IMG/VR virus record: IMGVR_UViG_3300045996_002259 | Location: 1 to 38,331 of that record | Length of the DNA stretch: 38,331 nt | DNA from: a virus | Strand: one strand, 5' to 3' | Part shown: positions 1 through 38,331 of the stretch, piece by piece | Layout of the letters: every line of letters begins with the position of its first letter | Position numbering within the stretch: position 1 is the first letter of the stretch | Position numbers and translations under genes: made by a program | The notes under the pieces: generated by a model | What the model was told of the DNA's origin: nothing | Seen by the model: the letters and a program-made list of their open reading frames with translations, nothing else | The model's database searches: none

Positions 1-31
1 GTGGTGGCAAAACTCGGAATCGAACCGAGGA
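1..31 (-). repeat. attL: tRNA 3'-end core
   Basis: This 31-base sequence is identical to 38301-38331. Read on the minus strand it is a tRNA 3' half. The T arm has a five-base-pair stem (13-17 with 25-29) around a TTCGATT loop, followed by the acceptor strand TTTTGCC, a discriminator A and an encoded CCA ending at base 2. The bases to the right do not continue as a tRNA, so this copy is the detached 3' end left by integration and not a working gene. Confidence 0.9.
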
Positions 32-26797: not shown

Positions 26798-28531
26798 CTA
26801 CGCTGCGGCCGCTGCCGGCACGCCGAGCAACTCGACCCAGTAACGCTTGGCCCTGCCCTCGCCTCGTTTGATGAACCGCACGCGCCGGCCGTCCTCGATC
26901 ACGAAGATGCGGCCGATCTTGCCCGACATCTCATCCGTGAACATGCGCCCCATCTTCGAAGCGCACTTCATGGACACCTCGAAACTCATTCGATCCCCGC
27001 TCCCGTCCGTCGGCTTCAGCTTACCCTCGAGCAGCCAGGACATCAGTTCGCTCTCATGGCAGCAGTCGACCAGCTCCTGGAAGGTGTATTCGATCGACGG
27101 CTTTTCGGCCGTCAGCGTCTGCGCCAGGATCTCCACCAGCTTCCGTTGATGCGGAGTCTTTTGGTCGGCCAACTGATCCTCCGCCGGCTTTACCAGCGGA
27201 TTGCCGTAGCCGGCCGCCTGGACAGCGCCGCCGAAGATATCCGACCATTCCTTGAACGTCGCGACTCGATACGGCTTCTCACGCGTGCCCGCCGGCGGCC
27301 GCCCGATCGCATACCAGTTTCTCACCAGCGCCCACAACGCGCTCAGGAACTCCCCGCGCACTTCCGGCCGCACCATCACCACCGGGTTCAGATCCCTCCG
27401 GTGCTGTTTCTCCTGCAGGTCAAAATTCTCCACGTGCAAATCGCACTGCAACAAACGCCGCTGCAAGTCCGGGCTCACCGAAAGATTGTTGCCCGTGATG
27501 ATCAGCATCGTGCTCTTCGACGCCTCAAATGACAGCTGCGTGCCCATCACGCGGCCGCCCCACACCGGCGACGTCATGAAACCCTCGAGCAACGCGCTCT
27601 CCAGGTGATTCTTCAAATTGTCGAAGAAGAGATAGGACGCCCCCTGCATCGCGGCCGTGTCCAGGACCTTCCTCAATTCCTCTTCGCCGGCGCGCGGCGT
27701 GTTCTTCGGCAAGCCGAACGGCGCCGCGATCGCCATCTGCGCCACCAGCGACTTGCCGCCACCCTGCGTGTTAGCGCGGACCATGCAACCCATGCGCGCG
27801 TCCTCGATTGGCTGCAGACCGATGCCAAACAACGCCAGCGCCATCGTGATTGCCACCGCCTTCGACCGGCTCAGGCCCGTCGCCGAGTCCAAATCCGCCC
27901 AGGGAAATTCCGAATAGTAGTCGTCCAAGATCCCCTTCGCCGTCACCAGGTCCATCTTTTCATCGATCGGGATCCGGCTCGTCATCGTGAACACCTGGGA
28001 CTCGTCGTCGTAACCCTCCGGCAACAGCTCCGGCCGCCCATCCTTGCGAAACACCGGCAACCGCACCGAGTTCACACGCGCGATCTTCCGCACCTGGTAG
28101 TAGAACGCATCCGACGCCAGGCACCCGCGCGCGGTGGTCAGCGGCATCGTCCGCCCGATCTTCTCGTCACGCGCCGCCTTCCCCTTCCCCACCGTGACCC
28201 AGTCATAGAGCAACGTATAATCTTCCACCCACGACAGGAACCGCTCCGCCGTCATCGGTTTCAGCATCCCGTTTTCGTGGTCGACGGTTACGATGATATT
28301 TTCCCGCCGGAAGAGAGGCGTAGACTTGAGACAAGCGCCCATGTCGCGTGCGAAGTCGACCAGCTTACGCTCATTGCGGCCGGGCAACTCCACCTCGAGC
28401 CGCTTGTCCTCATCCCTGCCCCGTTCGGCATCGGTGAGCACGGAAACCCCCGTTGACGCCGCGGCCTCGTCAGCCGCCGCGCCCATGTGTTTTCGCGCCA
28501 TCGCATTCAGTGCATCGCTTTGTTCGCTCAC
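26798..28531 (-). CDS. SF3-like AAA+ replicative helicase
   Basis: A 577-residue protein. The AAA+ core lies at about 245-370. The Walker A region is RANTQGGGKSL (P-loop with Asn at the first conserved position), then Walker B YLFFDN at 300-305, sensor 1 TMLIITGNN at 341-349 and an arginine-finger candidate in LQRRLLQCD. This matches phage DNA helicases paired with primases. The N-terminal 240 residues are a separate alpha-beta region that may contact the primase. The start is GTG overlapping the primase stop (GTGA), and the candidate origin lies just downstream. Confidence 0.75.
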   Translation of the reverse strand: MSEQSDALNAMARKHMGAAADEAAASTGVSVLTDAERGRDEDKRLEVELPGRNERKLVDFARDMGACLKSTPLFRRENIIVTVDHENGMLKPMTAERFLSWVEDYTLLYDWVTVGKGKAARDEKIGRTMPLTTARGCLASDAFYYQVRKIARVNSVRLPVFRKDGRPELLPEGYDDESQVFTMTSRIPIDEKMDLVTAKGILDDYYSEFPWADLDSATGLSRSKAVAITMALALFGIGLQPIEDARMGCMVRANTQGGGKSLVAQMAIAAPFGLPKNTPRAGEEELRKVLDTAAMQGASYLFFDNLKNHLESALLEGFMTSPVWGGRVMGTQLSFEASKSTMLIITGNNLSVSPDLQRRLLQCDLHVENFDLQEKQHRRDLNPVVMVRPEVRGEFLSALWALVRNWYAIGRPPAGTREKPYRVATFKEWSDIFGGAVQAAGYGNPLVKPAEDQLADQKTPHQRKLVEILAQTLTAEKPSIEYTFQELVDCCHESELMSWLLEGKLKPTDGSGDRMSFEVSMKCASKMGRMFTDEMSGKIGRIFVIEDGRRVRFIKRGEGRAKRYWVELLGVPAAAAA

Positions 28532-29832
28532 CAGCCGGTCCTTTCTTCCTCTGTCAAACGTAGCTCCATTTCATCACTCGCCGTGCGGATTGCCTCGCTC
28601 CCCTTCGTGTAGAAGTGCAAGCCCCGTCGCACCAGGGCAACGGACTCGTCACCGCCTGCGAGACTGCACGTGCGCGCCAGGTCTTTCCATGTCGCCTCGA
28701 CGTTCCGCACCGCCGCGAGTTCGCAGATCGGCCGCATCGGTGCGTTCGGCCGCAGATAGAGGAGTTTCTGTTCACCTGGAGGCTTGAATTGCATGTATTT
28801 TTTCTGGCCCGTCTTGTTCCCGTCCCCGTCCCGCTCTTCCACCAGTTTGCCACGACGCAGACAGCCCGGCAGCCGGGACAACCGCACCGCCGACCACGTC
28901 CCCCGATCGGCGCCGCACATCAGGCCCGCCATCAGGAACGGCATCATGCGCCGTTTCTCCTCATCCCAGGACTCCTTGGTCGGACAATCCACACGCACCA
29001 GGGCGTGCACGGATCTCGAGCCCGAAGTATAGAGCGCCTCGATCCGCGCCGGGATCTGCACGATGAAACCCAGCCAGTCACGCAACGGCGCCGAATCGCT
29101 TTCGATCACGAAGTAGCGGAAATCCGTCACGCACCGCCACGTCCTCCGCGACACCGGCACCCCGCCATCCGCCCGGGCCTTCCCCTCCGGGTTCGGCCTA
29201 TACTCACCGCACACCGGCTGCGGGAGAAACCAGATGCCATAGCTGCCATCCGTCACCGGCTGCTCATCCGGCCACATCTGATCGCCCTGGCTGTATTCAT
29301 TTTCAAAGCACAGGATTTTTTCCCCGTTCGGATACATCAGGCGCAGGAAGTCGGCCGCCGTCACCGTCGCCGGATCCACCGCCGACCGGTTCGCCAACCA
29401 CGGACCGGTGACGATGTCACGCCACGGCGCCGCGATCGCCTTCAGCTTGTCGATTTCGAATTCCACCTTCTTCCGCACCTCCGCCTCGGTCGGGATCCCG
29501 AAATCCTTTCTCTCCTGGGCGCTCGGCTTCCAATCATTCTCACGGCGCAGATATCCCTTTTCCGATCGCGACGGCTGCGCGTCGACGGATCGCAGCTTGT
29601 GCGTGATCTCCGCCTGCGTCCAAGGCAGGTCGCTGCGCGACAGGAATTCTTCGAAGAACGGCCGCGCCTCATGCGGCGTGAAGCCGAAACCATGCAGCAA
29701 CACCCGCGCGGCGTTGAAGACGACCGTGTGCGAGTCCTGCGGATCGGCCGGATCCCGGCGAGGCGCTTCCATCGCCAGGAGATAACGGCGCACCCGTTCC
29801 TCGAGGCTGATTTTTTGGGGGTAAGCAGGCAT
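28528..29832 (-). CDS. Archaeo-eukaryotic-type primase
   Basis: A 434-residue protein. The N-terminal 95 residues resemble a PriCT-type helical module (EARPFFEEFLSRSDLPWTQA). The catalytic region has the three AEP motifs: FVIESDS (242-247) for the metal-binding acidic pair, SGSRSVHALV with His276, and RLSRLPG (317-323). Such PrimPol-type enzymes make primers and are usually adjacent to an SF3-type helicase, which is next here. It overlaps the J-domain stop by one base (TGATG). Confidence 0.75.
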   Translation of the reverse strand: MPAYPQKISLEERVRRYLLAMEAPRRDPADPQDSHTVVFNAARVLLHGFGFTPHEARPFFEEFLSRSDLPWTQAEITHKLRSVDAQPSRSEKGYLRRENDWKPSAQERKDFGIPTEAEVRKKVEFEIDKLKAIAAPWRDIVTGPWLANRSAVDPATVTAADFLRLMYPNGEKILCFENEYSQGDQMWPDEQPVTDGSYGIWFLPQPVCGEYRPNPEGKARADGGVPVSRRTWRCVTDFRYFVIESDSAPLRDWLGFIVQIPARIEALYTSGSRSVHALVRVDCPTKESWDEEKRRMMPFLMAGLMCGADRGTWSAVRLSRLPGCLRRGKLVEERDGDGNKTGQKKYMQFKPPGEQKLLYLRPNAPMRPICELAAVRNVEATWKDLARTCSLAGGDESVALVRRGLHFYTKGSEAIRTASDEMELRLTEEERTGW

Positions 29833-30503
29833 CAGGAGGTAACGAAGCGAAACGGGGACGCGGGATACATTTTATCGGCCCAGCCGACCAAATCGTCCTG
29901 CGGTGGTTTATCCGCCCGATAGCTCCAATGCCCCAGCTCTCCGATGCATTCGCACAAATGCGCCACCTTCTCTTCACACTCCGTTTCCTTGGCCTTCATC
30001 ACCACCAGGCTCTCCGCGATATCCTGCTCGATCACGTTTTCGACATCACCCATGCGACGAAAACGCCCCTGCAGCGTGTCCAGCTCCTGAACGATTTTTT
30101 GAACCTTCGCCAGCTCCCGCCGGACGTTGTTCAGCTCGGCCTCAAGCTCCGCACGCATCGCGTCAACCATATCGGCCTGACGGTAATTCGTGACCGTGCC
30201 GAGTGCGTTTCGGAACGCCGCCAGCAAGGCAATCTCCACCTTGCTCTTCGGCCTCTCGGCGCGCTGGTCCTTCGTATAGCCGTGCTTATCAAAGTAGGCA
30301 CGCTGCTCAGCATCCGAAAGGATATCATGCGCCCAGGTCGCGCGGCGAAACTGCTGCGCATAGGCATTCTGTTCTTCCGGGCTTTTGCGGTGATGGACGT
30401 CCGGATGATTCAACCGAGCCTGCTTACGATAAGCCGCCTTGATCTGCGCGGCCGTCGCATCCGGCTTAATGCCGAGGACGTGATAGGGATTTTCTTCGTT
30501 CAT
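29832..30503 (-). CDS. J-domain co-chaperone-like protein
   Basis: A 223-residue protein starting at the ATG at 30503. Residues 6-68 are a J-domain with the HPD tripeptide at 33-35 (RLNHPDVHH) and the flanking helices II and III. The rest is not DnaJ-like: no Gly/Phe region and no Cys-rich zinc domain. It is helical and probably coiled coil (ELEAELNNVRRELAKVQKIV). A J-domain alone recruits and stimulates host DnaK. Sitting directly before the primase, it may load or unload the replication complex, comparable in role to lambda P with host DnaK and DnaJ, though not related to P in sequence. Confidence 0.8.
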   Translation of the reverse strand: MNEENPYHVLGIKPDATAAQIKAAYRKQARLNHPDVHHRKSPEEQNAYAQQFRRATWAHDILSDAEQRAYFDKHGYTKDQRAERPKSKVEIALLAAFRNALGTVTNYRQADMVDAMRAELEAELNNVRRELAKVQKIVQELDTLQGRFRRMGDVENVIEQDIAESLVVMKAKETECEEKVAHLCECIGELGHWSYRADKPPQDDLVGWADKMYPASPFRFVTS

Positions 30504-30517
30504 GGAATGATGGGGCG

Positions 30518-30763
30518 TTACGCTGCTTTCTGGACTGGGTTTTTGATCGAGTGACACGCCGGCGGACGACCGGGCTTCCCGGGCTGCCATGGCTGGCAGC
30601 CCGTCCGCTTACGAACGGCGGCCGTCACCTTGGCCTGGCATGGGTCGCATCGGTCCCAACAATTCCCGCGCGGCTTACCACACAGGATGCACCGACCCGA
30701 CGCCTTCATGCGCAGTTGCCACGCCCTCTGCCTCGAGACGGGTTTCGGAGTCGGTTCGCTCAT
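30518..30763 (-). CDS. Small zinc-ribbon-like protein
   Basis: An 81-residue protein. Cys residues are arranged as CxxC (GRCILCGKPRG) and CxxC (DRCDPCQAKV), a zinc knuckle pair, surrounded by basic residues and Pro. The ATG at 30763 overlaps the preceding stop by 4 bases (ATGA). It may be a DNA- or RNA-binding adaptor. The family is not recognised. Confidence 0.65.
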   Translation of the reverse strand: MSEPTPKPVSRQRAWQLRMKASGRCILCGKPRGNCWDRCDPCQAKVTAAVRKRTGCQPWQPGKPGRPPACHSIKNPVQKAA

Positions 30764-31821: not shown

Positions 31822-32118
31822 TCACTCTCCTCCTTTCTCGATCACCTCGTCATCCGGCCGGTCGGGATATTCGGTCCCACGCGTGCCGTTCGCCGGGTTG
31901 ATCGGCTTGCCAGGCGTGTAGAGCTTCATGGTCTCCAGCATGTGGGCCACGAGCTTCGTCTCCGTCTGCCCCTTGACGACGATCACCGCGAATTGCGCAT
32001 CTTCCTTCCCGTTCGTCCCGAAAAACAAAATGGAGACCGGATCGGTGTCGGCATTCGCGTCCTTCAGCAGTTGGCTGAGTTTGGGGATATTCCAGTCGCT
32101 GAGGTTGATCGGGTTCAC
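31822..32118 (-). CDS. Unknown early protein
   Basis: A 98-residue alpha-beta protein (NLSDWNIPKLSQLLKDANAD, then AVIVVKGQTETKLVAHMLET). It begins with GTG overlapping the ATPase-exonuclease stop (GTGA). No family is recognised. Its position between a nuclease fusion and small accessory genes suggests an early function only. Confidence 0.55.
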   Translation of the reverse strand: MNPINLSDWNIPKLSQLLKDANADTDPVSILFFGTNGKEDAQFAVIVVKGQTETKLVAHMLETMKLYTPGKPINPANGTRGTEYPDRPDDEVIEKGGE

Positions 32119-33458
32119 GACTTCACCTCCATCATCGGATGCTGCAGTTTTTCTTTCTCGGCCCAGATGCGCGTGATCTTTTTCGCCTGGCCGATCGCAT
32201 CGTCCAGGGCGTTGTGCGCCACGCCTTCGGCCTCATCCTTCACCGACGGGAATTCCGCCTCGAGCGTGCGCAGGTCACGCCCATGCCAGTAATCCCACGG
32301 CAGACGGATCCCCGTCGCCGCGTAGGCATCGCCGAGACGGCCGCCATCAAAGTCCCACCCGTTGCCCCACACGTTGATTTCCTTGCCGTTGCCATCGCAT
32401 AGCCACCACGCGAACGCCTCGAGCACGCAGCGCAACGAAGCGCCGGCCTTGCACACCTCGCGCCGGGCCTCGTCGTCCTGCCCCATCCACCACACCATCG
32501 TGTCCGCATCCAGCGTCAGGCCGGCCGCGATACACGACTTGATGTCGATCCGCATGTAGAACGGACGCCCCACGATCACGCCCAGGGCGTTGAACTTCAC
32601 CGCGCCGATCGCACTCACCGCCGACCGCGCGGCCGTGCCCCACGTCTCGATGTCCACGCTCGCGTTGATCACCGGCGCCGGCCGCAGTTCTTTTTCCTGC
32701 GCCTTGCTCCACTTCAGCAACGCCTTCGCCGCCGCATGCGTCATGCCAGCGTTGGTGATCACGTCACCCTCGGGGCTGATCTGAATCGGGATCACGCCAG
32801 GCGCGGGCGCCGGCACCGCTGGCCATGGGTCTAGTTCATCGAGCATCCGCACCGGAATCCCGGGTATCGCGCGGAGAGGACCTTGCTCGCTGCGCCACTT
32901 CTTTTTCAACTCCTCGAGATGCTCAGCCCAAGCTACCGGATCATGGAACGGCCGGCCCGAATGGAAGGCAGCCCAAGCGGCCACCGACTGGGCCAGCCGG
33001 ATCACCAAAGCCACGCGCTCCAGCTCAGGCGCGATCCAGTTGCCGTCATGCCCGTTGATCACAACAAAGCACCGCGGCGTCAGAATAGACAACGGCACCT
33101 TTCCACCCGTCGGCGTCCACGTGAAGGCACCACCCCGGGCCAACTCAATCAACGCATTGCGGACACCCTTGCGGAGCCGCGACACGTTGTCGAAATGCAC
33201 GAAGCCGGCCTTCAGGAATGCGACAGCCTGCGCGGTGAAGCTGTTGCGATCCTCCGGCATCGGGGTGATCATCTTCACGGCCTCATCGGTGCCACCGGCG
33301 GCCGCGATCAGTTCCCGCCCCAACGTGGTTTTCCCCGAGCCGGACGGGCCGATGATGATGACGACCTGGACGCGCTTGCGGATGCCCGCGGACAGCGAGA
33401 GCGCCCGCCGATAATTTACGGCAGATGCGTCATCCGCGAAATAATAGGTGTGTTTCAT
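32115..33458 (-). CDS. P-loop ATPase fused to a DEDDh 3'-5' exonuclease
   Basis: A 447-residue two-domain protein. Residues 1-205 are a P-loop domain: Walker A GPSGSGKT (37-44), Walker B FVHFDN (86-91), a sensor-like FVVINGHD (131-138), then RVALVIRL. A Pro-rich linker follows at about 205-265. Residues 266-447 are a DEDDh exonuclease of the Rv2179c-like or DUF5051 type: SVDIET with Asp269 and Glu271, GNGWDFDGG around 366-373, and HNALDD with His415 and Asp420. The expected order of the four acidic residues and the His is kept. The frame is continuous. Likely an ATP-driven nucleic acid trimming or recombination enzyme; the partner gene is the large ParB-like one just upstream. Confidence 0.75.
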   Translation of the reverse strand: MKHTYYFADDASAVNYRRALSLSAGIRKRVQVVIIIGPSGSGKTTLGRELIAAAGGTDEAVKMITPMPEDRNSFTAQAVAFLKAGFVHFDNVSRLRKGVRNALIELARGGAFTWTPTGGKVPLSILTPRCFVVINGHDGNWIAPELERVALVIRLAQSVAAWAAFHSGRPFHDPVAWAEHLEELKKKWRSEQGPLRAIPGIPVRMLDELDPWPAVPAPAPGVIPIQISPEGDVITNAGMTHAAAKALLKWSKAQEKELRPAPVINASVDIETWGTAARSAVSAIGAVKFNALGVIVGRPFYMRIDIKSCIAAGLTLDADTMVWWMGQDDEARREVCKAGASLRCVLEAFAWWLCDGNGKEINVWGNGWDFDGGRLGDAYAATGIRLPWDYWHGRDLRTLEAEFPSVKDEAEGVAHNALDDAIGQAKKITRIWAEKEKLQHPMMEVKS

Positions 33459-36151: not shown

Positions 36152-36652
36152 TCAGGCTGCTTTTTTGTGTTGGTTGTCGCCGCGTTTTTTTCCGAGTCGC
36201 ACACGGCGATAGGACTCGACGGCCGTTTCCGACTTCTGGAAACGCGCCTTGAAACCACCGGCTCCCTGCTTGCGCATGTAGCCGCTGAAAATCTGTTTTA
36301 CCCGCCAGCTGTGGGCCTGCTTGGTCTCGCCAAACAGCTTCCCGTATTCCTCGCAGGTGAGATCCCGCAACGCCTCCGGACGGAGCGCGTGCACGATCGC
36401 ATAAAAATTCCGCATCACCGCCCCCGGATGGGCGCCATCCTGGACGCAGAAATCAATAAACCGGTTGAACACCTCCATGCGCGCACGCATCAGTTCCTCA
36501 TCATCCTCGCCGTCTTCGGCCGCCAGCAGCGCGGAGAGCGGCGTATAATTGGTCACATCGCCCTTCTTTCCACGATACAGCCCGCGCAGTTCCTCCTTGT
36601 CGGTAACGCTGCGCAGCACGCCGGCGATCCGCTCTTCATGATTGCTGCTCAT
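36152..36652 (-). CDS. Unknown early DNA-binding-like protein
   Basis: A 166-residue basic protein. The C-terminal third has an HTH-like stretch (LTCEEYGKLFGETKQAHSWR) and a positive tail (VRLGKKRGDNQHKK). The ATG at 36652 has a purine-rich start context, overlaps the upstream stop (ATGA), and lies 15 bases after palindrome copy 3. No family is recognised. It is probably an early DNA-binding or regulatory protein. Confidence 0.6.
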   Translation of the reverse strand: MSSNHEERIAGVLRSVTDKEELRGLYRGKKGDVTNYTPLSALLAAEDGEDDEELMRARMEVFNRFIDFCVQDGAHPGAVMRNFYAIVHALRPEALRDLTCEEYGKLFGETKQAHSWRVKQIFSGYMRKQGAGGFKARFQKSETAVESYRRVRLGKKRGDNQHKKAA

Positions 36653-36918
36653 TCCGGCCTCCCTTCTGTGGTCACGTGACCACACTGGGCGCCGCCGAAC
36701 GTCTTCAGGAAATGCTCGGCAAGCGCCGGCGTGGCGAAGATCCCAAACGATTCCGGCCGCCCGTCGACGGGATGGATCCGCGACACGGTCGGCTGCCCGC
36801 ATGCCGACACGCCGATCTGCAGACCGTCCAACGAACGCGCCAGGGGCGAGACGACAACCGGCGCGGAAAAATCAAGGGCGGGAACCATGCGCCCGCTGGG
36901 TTCGACGATGTGATTCAA
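36649..36918 (-). CDS. Small early protein carrying palindrome copy 3
   Basis: An 89-residue protein if it starts with TTG at 36918, which overlaps the upstream stop (TTGA) as in the other couplings of this operon. The ATG at 36888 is an alternative. The C-terminal half is compact (HPVDGRPESFGIFATPALAE) and the very end, QCGHVTTEGRPE, is encoded by the palindrome. The family is unknown. Confidence 0.5.
   Translation of the reverse strand: MNHIVEPSGRMVPALDFSAPVVVSPLARSLDGLQIGVSACGQPTVSRIHPVDGRPESFGIFATPALAEHFLKTFGGAQCGHVTTEGRPE
36667..36684. promoter_or_regulatory. 18-bp palindrome (copy 3) before an early gene
   Basis: TGTGGTCACGTGACCACA, identical to copies 1 and 2. It ends 14 bases before the ATG at 36652 and codes for CGHVTT at the end of the upstream protein. 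The identical placement in front of a start fits a shared regulatory protein. Confidence 0.6.
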
Positions 36919-37172
36919 GCGACTTTGGGGGAGTGGAGAGTTGCGGGCTGGAACCCGTTGCAGCCCTGCCCGCCGGGCCAGGTGCTGGAGACTTGAGAGG
37001 AGCGGCCGAACCGTCCGCACGTTGCGCGGATGGGACACGAAGCATTGGTGCACGCGGAAACGGCGAGCGCCCGGAGCGCTGCCGCTCCGGCCTGGCGGCC
37101 ACGGGCAACCCCAAGGTGACCTTTCCAAATGTCACCCGTCAGCGTGCAGAATTCACCAGGGGCAAGGATCAT
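36915..37172 (-). CDS. Small Cys-rich protein
   Basis: An 85-residue protein. Cys residues CTNASCPIRATCGRF are spaced as in small zinc-binding phage proteins, with another Cys at C66. The rest is Gly/Arg/Ser-rich. The ATG at 37172 overlaps the upstream stop (ATGA). Its role is unknown. Confidence 0.55.
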   Translation of the reverse strand: MILAPGEFCTLTGDIWKGHLGVARGRQAGAAALRALAVSACTNASCPIRATCGRFGRSSQVSSTWPGGQGCNGFQPATLHSPKVA

Positions 37173-37579
37173 GCGGAGACCCCCTCTTTTTTAGGAACGT
37201 ATCCGGCATCCCCTTCGAACGCCTTTAGCTCACGCTCAACACGCTTCCCGTCGGGGAGCGTAACGGTGAGTGGGATTGGCGGATGCGGCTGGTTGTCTTG
37301 CCTGAAGCGGAACGGCGCGCTCAAATTCGCGTAGCCGTCTTTCCATGCATCCCCCATCGATTCGCCCTGACCAAGGAAGGTAGTGGCCTCCTTCGTGCGC
37401 GTGTTGAGCACGGTGAATTCAAACATCTTCAGGCTCATGCCGCCGCGTCCTCCTGGCGCGCTCAAATTCGCGTAGCCGTCTTTCCATGCATCCCCCATCG
37501 ATTCGCCCCGACCAAGGAAGGTAGTGGCCTCCTTCGTGCGCGTGTTGAGCACGGTAAATTCAAACATCTTCAGGCTCAT
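37169..37579 (-). CDS. Protein with a fresh 47-residue duplication
   Basis: A 136-residue protein. Residues 1-47 and 48-94 are nearly the same: MSLKMFEFTVLNTRTKEATT starts both. The 141-bp DNA repeat is identical except for two bases, one changing Arg to Gln. The ancestral protein would be 89 residues from the second Met (37438), which also keeps a start context. The last 45 residues are unique (PHPPIPLTVTLPDGKRVERE). The family is unknown. The ATG overlaps the upstream stop (ATGA). Confidence 0.7.
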   Translation of the reverse strand: MSLKMFEFTVLNTRTKEATTFLGRGESMGDAWKDGYANLSAPGGRGGMSLKMFEFTVLNTRTKEATTFLGQGESMGDAWKDGYANLSAPFRFRQDNQPHPPIPLTVTLPDGKRVERELKAFEGDAGYVPKKEGVSA

Positions 37580-37595
37580 GCCGCCGCGTCCTCCT
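37314..37595. repeat. Tandem 141-bp duplication
   Basis: Unit 37314-37454 is repeated at 37455-37595. Both begin with the shared short word GGCGCGCT, which recurs once more at 37596-37603, the typical mark of a duplication through microhomology. Two differing bases were found on direct comparison. The copies keep frame (47 codons). Confidence 0.95.
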
Positions 37596-37932
37596 GGCGC
37601 GCTTCAACGTCCGCCATCCAGTTCCCCCGCACGTTGCAGCCGCGCGGAGCCACGGGAGGTGGTGGCGGCGTGCGCAACTCATCTAAGGCAGCACGGAGCA
37701 TCGTAGCCTCCGCCTTGCAGCCATCGGCAAAAAGTATCTCCACCAAGCGGCTCAGACCCGCGACCGTGTAGAACCAGCCGCCTCCTGCCCCCGACTGATA
37801 GAGAAAGTGACCCGGCGAACCCATGTCCGAGGTGTGCAGCCGATCCAACTTCAACTCAGAGAGGCCGGTGATTTCTGCCACCTTCCTCGCAAAAAGGCCG
37901 GCCACTGCCGGCGATGTGGTTGCGGTATTCAT
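37576..37932 (-). CDS. Unknown early protein
   Basis: A 118-residue protein. The central part (GSPGHFLYQSGAGGGWFYTV) and the helical AEATMLRAALDELR are followed by a Pro-rich section (TPPPPPVAPRG). I do not recognise it. The ATG at 37932 overlaps the upstream stop, and its own stop overlaps the duplicated gene's ATG. Confidence 0.55.
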   Translation of the reverse strand: MNTATTSPAVAGLFARKVAEITGLSELKLDRLHTSDMGSPGHFLYQSGAGGGWFYTVAGLSRLVEILFADGCKAEATMLRAALDELRTPPPPPVAPRGCNVRGNWMADVEARQEDAAA

Positions 37933-38300: not shown

Positions 38301-38331
38301 GTGGTGGCAAAACTCGGAATCGAACCGAGGA
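38301..38331 (-). repeat. attR: tRNA 3'-end core
   Basis: Identical to 1-31. On the minus strand its 5' side continues beyond the window, so this copy should be part of the intact tRNA gene, rebuilt by the phage-derived 3' end. The 5' acceptor strand should read GGCAAAA. The amino acid cannot be told from the part seen. Confidence 0.9.
38302..38331 (-). tRNA. Partial tRNA (T arm, acceptor 3' strand and CCA)
   Basis: A T stem of CTCGG with CCGAG, loop TTCGATT, then TTTTGCC, A, CCA on the minus strand. The anticodon and D arms lie outside the window. Confidence 0.75.

Follow-up and report, generated by a model that had tools for sequence, protein, structure and literature searches.

The stretch of DNA analysed here (the window, a virus record of 38331 bases) encodes an AAA+ ATPase joined to a DEDDh exonuclease in one protein. 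This fusion is a genuine, rare domain join found in a single lineage, and it is an unusual version of a known enzyme, not a new kind of system. We give about an even chance to the reading in which an ordinary phage exonuclease of the DexA/Rv2179c type, standing in its usual slot, gained an N-terminal AAA+ ATPase that delivers it to phage 3' ends. No other pairing of an AAA+ domain with a DexA-type nuclease was found in the public collections searched here.

The fusion gene is one continuous coding frame

The gene and the linker between its two domains lie at the following positions.

32115..33458, minus strand: AAA+ ATPase / DEDDh exonuclease fusion gene, 447 aa (open reading frame, Pfam, codon G+C)
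32688..32738, minus strand: linker helix, residues 241-257, ahead of the exonuclease (predicted model m60d6ed5f18a1)

The first-pass annotation of this DNA had described a continuous frame of 447 codons in which a P-loop ATPase and a DEDDh exonuclease both keep their motifs, and this description was borne out. The frame runs from ATG to TGA over 447 codons with zero internal stops; its Walker A lysine is K43, and the first of the DEDDh acids is D269. The codon-position G+C of the whole frame (0.63/0.48/0.81) is what the genes around it typically show, and so is that of each half and of the junction; third-position G+C stays at 0.72-0.94 in each 50-codon block examined, linker included. Since this gene-typical signal continues across the junction, we conclude that the linker is coding. 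The stop codon of the fusion gene overlaps the start of ORF 31822-32118, within a tightly packed run of minus-strand genes which extends to the putative terminase genes, thus the fusion gene is probably part of an operon.

Codon 233 (around 32760, minus strand) is a possible internal GTG start with GAGG just upstream, from which the gene could also yield the exonuclease on its own, with about 215 aa, although such an arrangement may also occur by chance.

The window is a prophage present in a second assembly

The window looks like a complete prophage with a direct repeat at its ends.

1..31, with an identical copy at 38301-38331, strand not given: att repeat of 31 bp (integration in tRNA-Phe in the MAG)

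The same prophage is carried on a MAG contig of Rariglobus (Opitutaceae, Verrucomicrobiota), where other DNA adjoins one of its ends, with the boundary inside a tRNA-Phe gene. The 31-bp repeats are likely the attachment sites and, together with the junction inside the tRNA-Phe gene, they identify the window as an integrated prophage. The fusion protein encoded by the MAG contig is 100% identical to the window copy, and over the 17 kb compared, two mismatches and an indel distinguish the two sequences. They also differ in a 153-bp tandem repeat, which is shorter by one copy in the MAG; in the window this tandem duplication (37314-37607, within ORF 37169-37579, minus strand) doubles part of a small protein.

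The C-terminal half is a predicted DexA-type exonuclease

32163..32663, minus strand: DEDDh exonuclease domain, residues 266-432, PF16473, DexA fold (Pfam, alignment, predicted model)

PF16473 matches residues 266-432 with an E value of 4e-41 (141.1 bits against a cut-off of 27). The set of exonuclease acids begins with D269, within the motif DIET; in our alignment D269 and E271 are kept in 73 of 74 exonuclease relatives, and D371, H415 and D420 in all 74. Loss of the active site in most homologues, which had been named as a finding that would speak against the annotation, was thus not seen. The predicted model of this half is confident (pLDDT mostly at least 90), and its best match among solved structures is T4 DexA (8ken/8kel, E=5e-10), followed by 3'hExo and RNase T. 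By alignment and predicted fold, residues 266-432 are an Rv2179c/T4 DexA-type DEDDh 3'-5' exonuclease, with predicted activity.

The fusion has its fold, all catalytic residues and the phage setting in common with T4 DexA and the Rv2179c-like exonucleases (PF16473, PHROG 255). However, DexA and the 91 exonuclease ORFs that we collected are stand-alone or without a P-loop, whereas the fusion protein adds an N-terminal AAA+ domain. Reported roles of T4 DexA are host-DNA scavenging and intron homing (PMC12153337), and EcD, a bacterial DexA homologue, defends E. coli against T4 (HREX) (PMC12153337).

The N-terminal half is a predicted AAA+ core

32955..33437, minus strand: AAA+ core, residues 8-168, predicted (model m44bdacff41c2, PDB matches)
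33327..33350, minus strand: Walker A GPSGSGKT, residues 37-44 (sequence, alignment)
33129..33203, minus strand: Walker B FVHFDN (86-91) and motif DN-x17-GG (90-110), common to PrimPol-helicase ATPases
33051..33068, minus strand: sensor-1-like strand FVVING, residues 131-136, with N135 (alignment, predicted model)

Family libraries returned weak P-loop matches only for this half, and the Pfam AAA matches were all sub-threshold (best E=1e-4). Within Walker A, G37, G40 and K43 are invariant in alignment A4. The model m44bdacff41c2, built with relatives, has a mean pLDDT of 60, with most core blocks at 70-82, and in it a beta-hairpin separates the Walker B helix from the sensor-1 strand. In this model of mean pLDDT 60, residues 8-168 align with AAA+ structures over about 140-150 residues with Z up to 12.6; PDB matches include RuvB, MCM and papillomavirus E1, and phage DNA primases and parvoviral NS1 proteins are among the viral structural matches. 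We predict that residues from about 8 to 168 form an AAA+ core. No canonical helical lid was recognised after this core in the predicted model. In Walker B, D90 is present and N91 stands where the catalytic Glu is usual, and an Arg invariant in relatives, the likely arginine finger, aligns with V149, which R148 adjoins. Because of V149 in the Arg column and the Asn in place of the Walker B Glu, ATP hydrolysis by this half may be weak or absent.

The ATPase is probably of the PrimPol-helicase type

In order to find relatives of the ATPase half, we employed a DNA pattern drawn from the Walker B region of the fusion and loosened after phage primase-helicase ATPases; the motif was preselected. The pattern DN[LVI]S-x7-[DN]AL-xx-LA-x-GG occurs at six places only in IMG/VR, and all six encode P-loop ATPases with Walker A, a DN-type Walker B and DN-x17-GG in the same order, five of them also with the NG strand. 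The match at L115 carries Prim-Pol and PriCT_2, that at L120 is joined to a family-A DNA polymerase, and the one annotated phage relative is named DNA helicase/primase. A tblastn search with the N-terminal domain confirmed three of the six (4e-6 to 2e-4 among the candidates). A profile of this ATPase family scores the fused domain at 27.6 bits, against at most 2.0 for shuffles and at most 13.8 for AAA controls. With the preselected 21-residue motif masked, the score drops to 3.7 bits, less than some generic AAA controls reach, and for this reason it is probable, not proven, that the ATPase half belongs to the PrimPol-helicase type (SF3/D5-like).

By sequence, ATPases of this type are the nearest relatives of the N-terminal half, mostly through that one motif. 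They include those of L115 and the primase/helicase of Microbacterium phage Zeta1847, and they share with the fusion Walker A and the DN-type Walker B (the DN form is standard among them in the alignment), and also the DN-x17-GG motif and the NG sensor-1 strand at matching spacing. The fusion differs from them in that it has no primase part, the Arg of 'DRA' is replaced, the C-terminal part is shorter and sequence similarity is weak outside the motif. The family libraries recognised only the P-loop and PF16473 regions of the fusion protein, and no primase or PrimPol domain.

The domain pair was found in one lineage

The first-pass annotation knew no described phage enzyme with this domain pair, and our searches of phage, plasmid, IMG/VR and Verrucomicrobiota sequences, with the scopes given here, agree with it. 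Neither the 50,697 phage records nor the 72,556 plasmids contained a match covering at least 80% of the query, and the matches listed from both collections are all to the exonuclease half. There was no second fusion among the best 80 of the IMG/VR exonuclease relatives listed, and no ATPase fusion among the 91 collected exonuclease ORFs (a few of them duplicates), the longest of which has 309 aa. Relatives in which a frameshift splits the two domains, a further finding named against the annotation, were not seen; the relatives are without the ATPase altogether. Scans of IMG/VR with full-length and N-terminal 8-mer patterns gave no fused relative, their sole N-terminal match being one of 18 residues to Walker A. 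In draws of 384 Opitutia, 252 Opitutaceae and 388 Verrucomicrobiota genomes, which overlap, the fusion occurs in the source MAG alone, and the other matches are exonuclease-only frames of 186-252 aa. A search of 286 Opitutia genomes with the N-terminal domain returned generic AAA-type matches only, e.g., ClpC-like ORFs. A query with the ParB neighbour returned nothing. A looser DNA pattern gave six matches of another kind, which we judged to be due to chance. No published account of such a fusion was found in the literature searched, a scope that leaves out most subscription journals.

The exonuclease occupies a conserved phage slot

33477..36149, minus strand: ParB-like protein, 890 aa (ParB_N + HTH_ParB), conserved upstream neighbour (Pfam, BLAST)
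36152..36802, minus strand: 216-aa ORF, whose homologue adjoins the ParB gene in L090 (BLAST)
28528..29832, minus strand: primase-like protein with a weak match to PHROG 2597; its place downstream of the exonuclease is conserved (BLAST)
26798..28531, minus strand: separate P-loop helicase-like protein of the phage (0.2 bits against the ATPase family profile)

To compare gene order, we searched the collected loci by BLAST with the genes of the window. In L066 and L092 the ParB-like, exonuclease, primase, helicase and both putative terminase genes are present with their order kept, while L090 keeps the 216-aa gene, the ParB-like gene, the exonuclease and the primase. L074 keeps the primase, helicase and packaging genes, and its exonuclease lies further on, after the terminase gene. 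The exonuclease of L066, L090 and L092 is a stand-alone protein of 168-178 aa, encoded directly after ParB in L066 and L092; an ORF with the ATPase signature was looked for next to it in these three loci and none was found. In L091/G186 a DnaC-like P-loop gene (by inspection) lies near the exonuclease and is unmatched by the ATPase profile. A weak profile match adjoining the ParB gene in L047 was rejected, as it has no P-loop. A copy of the phage's own helicase was rejected as the origin of the fused ATPase: at 0.2 bits, the family profile detects no relation between the two.

It had been suggested that the fusion, the giant ParB-like protein and several small early genes may form one system. 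Our comparison does not support such a ParB-ATPase-nuclease system, as ParB and the exonuclease adjoin in phages without the ATPase; moreover, the small genes that separate exonuclease and primase vary among related phages and are thus not conserved. The ParB-like protein has 645-762 aa in relatives, and since it is long in all related phages its size is not peculiar.

The early gene run also contains a J-domain protein (DnaJ, PF00226, E=7e-16) at 29832-30590 on the minus strand, adjoining the primase gene, and L029 has a similar ORF.

Possible mode of action and alternative explanations

The N-terminal gain would consist of an AAA+ core of about 170 residues, probably of the PrimPol-helicase type, and a helical linker. 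In our preferred reading the ATPase half would oligomerise on phage DNA and, by ATP-dependent DNA binding or short-range movement, would deliver and tether the exonuclease to 3' ends that come from replication or recombination. Such tethering would raise the local concentration or the processivity of the exonuclease, which would probably do its ordinary DexA-type work, i.e., 3'-end trimming and DNA recycling; the ATPase would contribute targeting or regulation, and not new chemistry. DNA replication or recombination is a more economical context for the protein than ATP-driven loading, protection or degradation of host DNA. ATP-driven movement is possible but unproven, because the evidence on the arginine finger and the lid is incomplete. 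We propose only tentatively a single-chain ATP-driven 3'-5' exonuclease, in which a PrimPol-helicase-type AAA+ ring motor would bear DexA-type nuclease heads.

The same features may be explained by a degenerate or regulatory ATPase domain, an appendage that binds ATP (or only DNA) and switches or positions the exonuclease without movement driven by hydrolysis. V149 at the arginine-finger column, the Asn for the Walker B glutamate and the lack of a recognised lid are consistent with it, and there is no second copy to show selection on the fusion: with a single virus lineage, conservation cannot show it. However, Walker A, N135 and the aspartate of Walker B have all been retained, and PrimPol-helicase relatives have DN as their standard form of Walker B. 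We hold this explanation to be possible, though on the doubtful side.

By analogy with EcD (HREX), the fusion might instead be a prophage-borne nuclease of defence or superinfection exclusion, as bacterial DexA homologues can act in defence (PMC12153337) and PADLOC gave weak matches to MADS P-loop proteins. These are short P-loop matches only, and the gene sits in a run of replication genes, at the syntenic position where related phages have an ordinary exonuclease, which makes such a role unlikely. Still less likely is that the fusion arose in assembly, or is a recent join of genes by chance and without function: although the fusion is seen in one lineage and the window and MAG records could come from related samples, the two assemblies are 100% alike across the junction while differing elsewhere, and the coding signal is unbroken through the linker.

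If the ATPase half works, the protein would be a natural one-chain helicase-nuclease made from parts that are usually separate in phages. Its fusion partner would point to replication or recombination forks, and it would offer a way to ask about the role of the widespread, poorly understood phage exonucleases of the DexA/Rv2179c type. If the ATPase half does not work, the domain fusion is an isolated case, of local interest.

The locus L120 (2-3040, plus strand) contains another combination, a single frame of 1012 aa with a PrimPol-helicase-type ATPase, a proofreading exonuclease and a family-A DNA polymerase, apparently a one-polypeptide helicase-polymerase. Like the fusion, it has the same ATPase type and a 3'-5' exonuclease in a single reading frame, but the exonuclease there belongs to another family (PF01612) and serves as the proofreading domain within a family-A polymerase.
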